Shown here: piece after piece, positions 163 to 3,224 of the stretch | How the letters are laid out: each line of letters opens with the position of its first letter | How positions within the stretch are numbered: position 1 is the first letter of the stretch | Assembly: GCA_002401725.1 (NCBI GenBank) | Contig: NVTW01000007.1 | Coordinates: 11,875 to 46,091, forward strand | Direction: 5' to 3' | DNA: 34,217 nt | Origin: Gammaproteobacteria bacterium | GTDB taxonomy: Bacteria > Pseudomonadota > Gammaproteobacteria > Enterobacterales > Alteromonadaceae | The notes under the pieces: generated by a model | Databases searched by the model: none | The model's input: the letters and a program-made list of their open reading frames with translations, nothing else | Told to the model about the DNA's origin: nothing | Made by a program: the position numbers and the translations under genes

Positions 163-506
163 AGCAAAAATAATAATAAAATGGACAAATTAGCTACGGA
201 AGGTTTCGACATTTCACTTGAAATGCACTACTTATTTAATATGGATGATTTCCTTTATATCAGGAAGATATAACAATAATATAATAGTCCAGAGGGCGTT
301 ACGGATAGCCAATAAGGCGTCAGGAAGACCGAGAACAATAAACAATGTATGGAAACGTAAATAATAATTAGGAATATGTCACTGTAAACAGGGAATGTGT
401 AAATTGGTCAGGATACCAAATTAGAATTGGAAATATAGGTTTGCTGGTTTTTACCGCAAATTCCTCCGGAAGCGATAACTGCAAGGTTATCGCTTTTTTA
501 TTTTTT
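163..506 (+). ncRNA. csrC: CsrB/CsrC-family regulatory RNA (CsrA/RsmA-sequestering sRNA); 5' end estimated
   Basis: No ORF. GGA at 183, 198, 243, 263, 303, 323, 351, 371, 392, 411, 429 and 468 within ~290 nt of AT-rich DNA (12 listed; 13 counting the GGG/GGA at 391-394 context loosely). GGA in hairpin loops: TATATC-AGGAA-GATATA (256-272), GTC-AGGAA-GAC (319-329), TTGGT-CAGGAT-ACCAA (404-419). Ends in a strong intrinsic terminator. Located immediately upstream of yihI, as csrC is in E. coli. 5' end inferred from TTGACC (127-132) and AATAAT (151-156). Confidence 0.85.
471..506 (+). terminator. Rho-independent terminator of the Csr-type RNA
   Basis: AGCGATAAC-TGCAAG-GTTATCGCT (perfect 9-bp stem) followed by TTTTTATTTTTT. 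Confidence 0.92.
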
Positions 507-1725: not shown

Positions 1726-1811
1726 CTTTGCGTTTGATCAAGTCTTAACTGTAGTGGCTTTGTTATCATCATCGCATTAATCTTTTGAACATAAAGCCTC
1801 TGGTGATCCAA

Positions 1812-3224
1812 ATGCGCACACTTTCAGTTTTAGATGATACTCAGGTTAAGCATAATTTCTTTGATAAAGAATTACTTAACAAATATAACATTAGTGGACC
1901 TCGTTATACCTCATATCCAACAGCACTAGAATTTCATGATCAATTTACAGACAGCGATTTAAAAACGGCCATTAAAGTTTCGCCGAATCGTGAATTGTCT
2001 CTGTATGTACATATCCCTTTTTGTCATAGCCTTTGCTATTACTGCGGTTGTAATAAAGTTATCACGCGTCATCGCGATAAAGCTGATACTTATTTAGAAT
2101 TTTTAGCACAAGAAATTACTTCGCGTGCTGAATTTTTTAGTGATTACACCGTAAAACAATTGCATTGGGGTGGTGGCACACCAAGCTTCTTAACTCATCA
2201 ACAAATCACTAAATTAGTCGAGTTGCTTAAAAATAGCTTTAACTTTGCTGAACAAGTGGAAATGAGTATAGAGATTGATCCTCGTGAAATTGAATTAGGT
2301 TTAGCGCAGCATTTATTTGACTTAGGGTTTAATCGGTTAAGTTTAGGTGTACAAGATATCGATTTAAAGGTACAGCAAACTATCAACCGGGTGCAGTCTA
2401 CCCAATTTATTAGTGATTTTATTGCACAGGCCAAAAAAGTTGGTTTTAAATCTATCAATGTCGATTTAATTTATGGTTTGCCCCACCAAAATACTGAGAC
2501 TTTTAGCAAAACTCTAGCGAAAGTGCATGAGTGGGATGTCGAGCGCATTTCTTTATTTAGCTACGCTCATTTACCGAGTCGTTTTGCTGCACAGCGTAAA
2601 TTACGTGACGAATGGTTGCCAAGTGTTGATGAAAAGTTTGCTTTAATGAAATTAGCAATAGAAACATTATGTGGTTACGGCTATGAATTTATTGGTATGG
2701 ATCACTTTGCTAAGCCTAACGACGAATTAGCTATTGCACAACGTAATGGCGAGTTACATCGTAACTTTCAAGGTTATACCACTAAAGGTGACTGCGACTT
2801 GTTGGGTTTAGGGGTTTCGTCAATTAGTGCTATTGGTAATAGTTACAGTCAAAATATAAAAGATTTAAAGGCTTATTATCAAGCAATAGAAGATCATCAA
2901 CATGCGGTAGAAAAAGGGTTAACGTTAACGCAAGACGATGTTATTCGCGGTGAAGTTATTCGTGAGTTAATGTGTAATTTAACGGTGAGTAAAGCAGCAA
3001 TTAACGAAAAATTTAGTCATATCAACGGCTTTAATTTTGATGATTATTTTAGTAACGATTTACCGTCATTAAAAACCTTTCAAGATGATGACTTACTCAC
3101 CAATAGTGCTGAAGCGATCACCGTGCAACAAAGTGCACGCTTACTTATTCGTAATATTTGTATGTCGTTTGACGCGTACATGAAAAAGAAAGTAAACCAA
3201 CAACGCTTTTCACGGGTAATCTAG
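1812..3224 (+). CDS. hemN: Oxygen-independent coproporphyrinogen III oxidase (radical SAM)
   Basis: GPRYTSYPTA, HIPFCHSLCYYCGCNK radical-SAM motif, HWGGGTPSFL, FQGYTTKGDCDLLGLGVSSIS. The track start at 1785 is TTG; the ATG at 1812 is more likely. Confidence 0.95.
   Translation: MRTLSVLDDTQVKHNFFDKELLNKYNISGPRYTSYPTALEFHDQFTDSDLKTAIKVSPNRELSLYVHIPFCHSLCYYCGCNKVITRHRDKADTYLEFLAQEITSRAEFFSDYTVKQLHWGGGTPSFLTHQQITKLVELLKNSFNFAEQVEMSIEIDPREIELGLAQHLFDLGFNRLSLGVQDIDLKVQQTINRVQSTQFISDFIAQAKKVGFKSINVDLIYGLPHQNTETFSKTLAKVHEWDVERISLFSYAHLPSRFAAQRKLRDEWLPSVDEKFALMKLAIETLCGYGYEFIGMDHFAKPNDELAIAQRNGELHRNFQGYTTKGDCDLLGLGVSSISAIGNSYSQNIKDLKAYYQAIEDHQHAVEKGLTLTQDDVIRGEVIRELMCNLTVSKAAINEKFSHINGFNFDDYFSNDLPSLKTFQDDDLLTNSAEAITVQQSARLLIRNICMSFDAYMKKKVNQQRFSRVI

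Follow-up and report, generated by a model that had tools for sequence, protein, structure and literature searches.

What is encoded by the GGA-rich stretch just upstream of yihI in this window (the whole 34,217-nt stretch of DNA analyzed here)? The first-pass annotation had placed an unannotated CsrB/CsrC-type RNA at positions 163-506, on the grounds that an ORF-free segment held about a dozen GGA motifs in less than 300 nt. Counting agrees with this description, as positions 171-470 of the + strand contain 12 GGA motifs (starting at 183, 198, 243, 263, 303, 323, 351, 371, 392, 411, 429, and 468), the unique maximum of the 34-kb window, whose mean is 1.6 GGA per 300 nt; no second + strand stretch reaches 9 or more, and the - strand maximum is 6. 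Dinucleotide shuffles of the segment (n = 5000) averaged 6.4 GGA motifs and reached 12 in 0.26% of cases (p = 0.0026). No credible ORF was found in the segment, where only TTG-start frames of 48 aa occur, and six related sequences have stops in all frames.

From the GGA count, conservation, and the covariance model R1 (see below), a CsrC-type small RNA with 12 GGA motifs is predicted at about 131-500 on the + strand (~370 nt). Its predicted promoter (98-125, +) consists of a -35 element, TTGCTC, at 98-103, a 16-nt spacer, and a -10 element, TAAAGT, at 120-125, and the pattern CTTGC-N16/17-GTAAAGTA is kept in most of 31 aligned loci. Because this conserved promoter lies at 98-125, the RNA is predicted to start near 131, about 30 nt further upstream than the 5' boundary of 163 that was first proposed. 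The intrinsic terminator at 468-504 (+) was recognized correctly at the outset, with its length given as a perfect 9 bp; it has 13 pairs (468-497) followed by a U tract, five of its pairs are changed on both sides among homologues, and 97% of its cells are paired (helix 8 of the structure described below). The unit thus has its own promoter, called by conservation only, and a Rho-independent terminator, with no ORF between them. Overall folding energy was unremarkable (z = -1.7 for 163-506 and -1.1 for 128-500), so that the evidence for structure lies in local hairpins and conservation and not in overall stability.

These hairpins were counted in a hand-made structure of eight helices across 25 aligned homologues, because RNAalifold, applied to the full alignment, recovered only the 319-329 hairpin and the terminator, the small hairpins being shifted by gaps. 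In this structure 86.7% of cells pair, a percentage biased upward since the alignment was consulted while the helices were drawn, and the compensatory changes are therefore the stronger evidence: changes on both sides occur in 19 of the 37 pairs, and 90 cells carry them, versus 33 +/- 5 after shuffling and 12-28 when the structure was slid by 1-3 columns. Among the 282 GGAs of the 25 homologues, 181 lie in loops closed by at least 3 pairs, versus 112 +/- 8 in shuffles around fixed GGAs.

All helices lie on the + strand. Helix 1 (133-147) is a 5' stem-loop of the AGCUAC...GUAGC type in relatives and is short in the window copy; two pairs are changed on both sides, and its 62% of cells paired reflects gaps misplaced in part of the rows. 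Helix 2 (AAU-AUGGAUG-AUU, 238-252) holds a GGA in its loop and is paired in 100% of cells, the third pair being U-G, U-A, or C-G. Helix 3 (UAUAUC-AGGAA-GAUAUA, 256-272) has changes on both sides in all 4 of the 4 counted pairs, with AGGA in nearly all rows, and is followed by a small hairpin, GUCC-AGA-GGGC (helix 4, 287-297), in which the window row is one column off. Helix 5 (GUC-AGGAA-GAC, 319-329) is 100% paired and is the most conserved predicted CsrA-type site; its motif GUCAGGANGACC is near-invariant in the 25 sequences, as is the form GUC-AGGAN-GAC. Helix 6 (ACA-GGGAA-UGU, 388-398) is paired in 84% of cells, and in helix 7 (UUGGU-CAGGAU-ACCAA, 404-419) the forms GGUU/AACC, GGCU/AGCC, and GGU/ACC interchange. 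The three hairpins originally quoted (TATATC-AGGAA-GATATA, GTC-AGGAA-GAC, and TTGGT-CAGGAT-ACCAA) are accordingly all present, and the check named in the first-pass annotation, whether related yihI-upstream regions keep the GGA loops and their stems, came out positive, with covariation across 25 loci. As in the CsrA-sequestering RNAs of the CsrB/CsrC/Rsm kind, many GGA motifs of the segment lie in hairpin loops or single strands.

The RNA unit lies immediately upstream of yihI (579-1193, +; Pfam PF04220 YihI, 76 bits), followed by a DUF2489 gene (1249-1725, +; PF10675, 131 bits) and a hemN-like radical SAM gene (1785-3224, +; PF04055). The resemblance of this order to that around E. coli csrC, stated in the first-pass annotation, was confirmed with Pfam and the annotated E. 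coli record, which reads polA-spf-yihA-csrC-yihI-hemN. In a relative from the same taxonomic order (L045), yihI is preceded by Spot 42, ORFs that by eye are YihA-like (a GTPase) and cytochrome c-like, and a GGA-rich stretch, an arrangement that is between the E. coli and window layouts.

Rfam, the other check proposed at the start, did not detect the RNA in the window: no family reached its threshold in a gathering-score scan, and the CsrC (RF00084) and CsrB (RF00018) families were unmatched even at E 10, while E. coli csrC as a positive control scored 278 bits with RF00084. Sub-threshold CsrC matches were obtained at the yihI-linked RNA in five relatives (L164, E = 0.00034; L090, 0.003; L168, 0.011; L175, 0.017; L094, 0.027), at 20-27 bits versus a cut-off of 61, and the two scans concerned gave no CsrC match elsewhere in their marine loci. 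A stricter whole-genome RF00084 search gave a few weak matches of 20-28 bits elsewhere, short ones that involve the model's terminator portion and some that fall on CsrB-type RNAs, and CsrC exceeded its threshold in 0 of the 41 related genomes searched. RF00018 had no match at the yihI locus in a genome-wide search, nor is the upstream box there of the near-symmetric kind seen at CsrB. Formal membership of RF00084 thus fails, and orthology to CsrC rests on other features.

The distribution of the RNA was examined in 41 related genomes, in 30 of which YihI homologues were located, and in 80 named loci fetched from Colwellia, Cognaticolwellia, Thalassotalea, Litorilituus, Pseudoalteromonas, Paraglaciecola, and others. 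In the genus of the window and in Cognaticolwellia-, Thalassotalea-, and some Colwellia-labeled loci, the unit lies directly upstream of yihI, each locus having a promoter, a 5' hairpin, 8-14 GGA motifs, and a terminator. R1, a covariance model that covers the 137 central positions and was built from 21 sequences with the window's genus left out, matched the window at 287-419 (96.4 bits, E = 6e-14) and gave exactly one match per genome in 14 of the 41 relatives; every match whose position was compared with that of yihI lay upstream of it. Fetched loci of Pseudoalteromonas and of Paraglaciecola were matched too; the RNA of most Pseudoalteromonas loci is about 850-1000 nt upstream of yihI, leaving room for a gene between. 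CsrB-type RNAs went unmatched by R1 (20 bits and E = 0.36 at best), the model's match to E. coli csrC was at the right place and not significant (10 bits, E = 0.43), and in a 274-genome sample of the class, with only 12 candidates scored per genome, it found only two genomes that were already known, a result of little weight. Neither the RNA nor the box described below was found within the 600 nt upstream of yihI in 30 loci of the Colwellia psychrerythraea type (L104-L133), which suggests loss or strong divergence in most loci of Colwellia sensu stricto; two of them (L104 and L108) have a small ORF of ~90-100 codons in the RNA's place. Some relatives also have GGA-rich stretches further out, at 900-1600 nt before yihI; these were rejected as candidates, being largely coding (by eye, a cytochrome c-like gene).

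Upstream of the promoter, comparison with E. coli csrC revealed an asymmetric element, TGTAAGACATTGMCCATW, which lies 139-153 nt before the -10 element in most loci and 172 nt before it in one, and whose 11-nt left part has 0-1 mismatches in 26 of 31 loci. The predicted box of the window, TGTAAGATATTGCCCATT, lies just outside it (C46:11844-11861, window positions -30 to -13) and has one extra change (TGTAAGATATT). The E. coli csrC box differs from the marine consensus by two mismatches. An earlier reading, that the yihI-linked RNAs were without a UvrY box, came from a search with the symmetric consensus at up to 3 mismatches and was wrong, as the csrC-type box is asymmetric. ChIP-exo and DNase I footprinting have shown UvrY bound upstream of both csrB and csrC in E. 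coli (Zere et al., 2015, PMC4682653); the csrC sites are TGTGAGACATTGCCGATA in E. coli and TGTGAGACATTGACCATT in Salmonella, their symmetry is weak, and a further TGTAAG half-site lies 16 bp upstream (PMC4682653). The Salmonella string is found identically in Thalassotalea litorea (L164) and Thalassomonas sp. M1454 (L170). The RNA of the window is thus preceded, at about 150-170 nt, by a predicted asymmetric UvrY site. In genome G035, asymmetric boxes of the csrC type stand ahead of RNAs that the CsrB model matches (G035:C19:21351 and G035:C55:35540), and the box is therefore not specific to csrC. A degenerate direct repeat of the box, with a period of ~23 nt, was seen in L147 (~2398-2438) and upstream of E. 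coli csrC (L184), for example CGTAGTACATTTGCCATA-AATAC-TGTAAGACATTGACCATA.

The same genome encodes both CsrA, with the RNA-binding residues L4 and R44, and UvrY, 68% identical to the E. coli sequence. A search for BarA gave a best match of 366 bits versus a cut-off of 890, in a genome that is 79% complete. Near a contig start (L072; G000:C28) the genome also has a CsrB-type RNA of about 536 nt with 32 GGA motifs, preceded at 183 nt by a near-symmetric predicted UvrY box, TGTAAGACATATCTCACA; its Rfam CsrB score is only 15 bits. A further RF00018 match (L071; G000:C37:21286-21472, 25 bits) was rejected as false, consisting of tandem DNA repeats of the GTTCAGGATGAACGG type after a terminator. 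The description of the yihI-linked RNA as the CsrC-equivalent regulator of this organism hence stands as regards its type and not as regards its uniqueness, the genome having at least one more RNA of this sort, which is larger. When either CsrB or CsrC is lost in E. coli, the level of the other goes up (PMC7652899); with the larger RNA present here, deletion of the yihI-linked RNA alone may have a mild effect.

We consider it very likely that this segment encodes a divergent orthologue of CsrC, controlled by UvrY and sequestering CsrA, and the RNA is of a known kind rather than part of a new system. Phosphorylated UvrY would bind the element at window positions -30 to -13 and activate the promoter at 98-125, giving an RNA of ~370 nt that would end at the terminator (468-504) and expose about a dozen GGA motifs, most of them in loops of 3-7 bp hairpins; CsrA dimers would bind these loops, and the RNA would draw CsrA away from its target mRNAs, in the way reviewed for CsrA sequestration in general in PMC7652899. 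The larger CsrB-type RNA elsewhere in the genome would act alongside it. The CsrA-sponge function we strongly infer from sequence, and CsrC orthology is supported by genomic place, the box, and weak model matches, synteny, the upstream site, and the sub-threshold matches in five relatives upholding what the first-pass annotation had called a CsrC-equivalent RNA even as Rfam detection in the window itself does not. More broadly, the case draws on sequence, conservation, covariation, synteny, the box, and the presence of csrA and uvrY, from which transcription, activation by UvrY, CsrA binding, and physiology are deduced.

Other readings account for some of these observations. A CsrA-binding RNA that arose independently, or a copy of CsrB, would have the same function with no shared descent with E. 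coli csrC, in keeping with the lack of a significant R1 match to E. coli csrC and with the low Rfam CsrC scores in relatives; we regard this as unlikely, because the RNA occupies the same place beside yihI, with an asymmetric UvrY box that is shared with csrC and about as far away, because the CsrC matches in the five relatives fall at the yihI-linked place, and because the CsrB-type RNA of the genome is unmatched by R1 and has a box of another, near-symmetric form. The segment could instead be a 5' untranslated leader or attenuator of yihI, in which CsrA or the terminator would control translation or read-through; only about 75-80 nt separate the 3' end of the RNA from the start codon of yihI, both are on one strand, and some transcripts may read through. 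Against this, a strong terminator stands ahead of yihI, a dozen sites are far more than leaders usually carry, and relatives including Pseudoalteromonas have the RNA 700-1000 nt upstream, separated from yihI by a gene that by eye is methyltransferase-like, making a leader highly improbable.

A primarily Hfq-binding RNA, with AAnAAnAA-rich spacers like those of CrcZ and with GGA motifs secondary, we judge to have hardly any likelihood. AAnAAnAA occurs 98 times in the 25 homologues (alignment A2, in the linkers between GGA hairpins) versus 28 +/- 6 in mononucleotide shuffles, a procedure that overstates the excess, and CrcZ matches the window at chance level (E = 0.5); covariation, however, centers on the GGA loops, and unstructured A-rich linkers suit a CsrA sponge too. 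It is possible, from sequence, that AAnAAnAA in the linkers is a motif for the distal face of Hfq. Returning to the CsrC orthologue, we offer as a speculative and rather doubtful extension that the asymmetric element TGTRAGACATTGMCCATW, with a second degenerate copy ~23 nt upstream in some loci, may be a second kind of UvrY control site and not a decayed palindrome, kept from Salmonella to Colwelliaceae and giving CsrC a different input from CsrB, and that the A-rich linkers may also bind Hfq, which would make the RNA a double sponge.

Csr RNAs were reportedly predicted by genome scan by Kulkarni in 2006. With CsrC of E. coli and Salmonella (RF00084) the RNA of the window shares the place adjacent to yihI, with hemN downstream and a terminator just before yihI, many GGA motifs (14 in 254 nt in E. 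coli versus 12 in about 370 nt here), and, 150-170 nt upstream, an asymmetric UvrY box, beyond which some relatives carry a partial second one at a distance of about 23 nt. It differs in a sequence too diverged for Rfam, in being longer, with A-rich linkers, in its upstream neighbors (glyoxalase-family and M61 peptidase genes versus yihA and spf), and in the DUF2489 gene between yihI and hemN. CsrB (RF00018), represented by the genome's own copy (G000:C28), shares the presumed titration of CsrA and an upstream UvrY box, but that copy differs in size and GGA number (536 nt, 32 GGA), in its near-symmetric box, in its place in the genome, and in being unmatched by R1. Pf1 of Pseudoalteromonas fuliginea, which has about 21 GGA motifs and a GacA box and affected E. 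coli glycogen synthesis in the manner of Csr RNAs (PMC9927453), is likewise a marine Csr sRNA, described in PMC9927453 with no mention of yihI; compared by description, its GGA number and near-symmetric box suggest a CsrB-type copy. In Shewanella oneidensis, CsrB1 and CsrB2 are UvrY-dependent GGA-rich sRNAs with TGTAAGN6CTTACA boxes, and differ from the RNA described here in being about 420 nt long and present as two copies at a different locus, between SO_1615 and SO_1617, while a csrC predicted near mutM was not UvrY-dependent (PMC3171408).

By analogy with E. coli, from which the idea is carried over, the RNA would have a role in the global regulation of carbon metabolism, motility, and biofilm, as the first-pass annotation had proposed. 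The alignment can be used as the seed for a better Rfam model, and the near-identity of the Salmonella csrC UvrY site to the marine sites makes the role of the asymmetry directly testable, with the apparent loss of the RNA in most Colwellia sensu stricto loci providing natural knock-outs for comparison. The finding extends the range of CsrC to Colwellia- and Thalassotalea-like marine bacteria and suggests that CsrB- and CsrC-type RNAs, differing in their UvrY boxes, were already separate before these groups and the enterics diverged.
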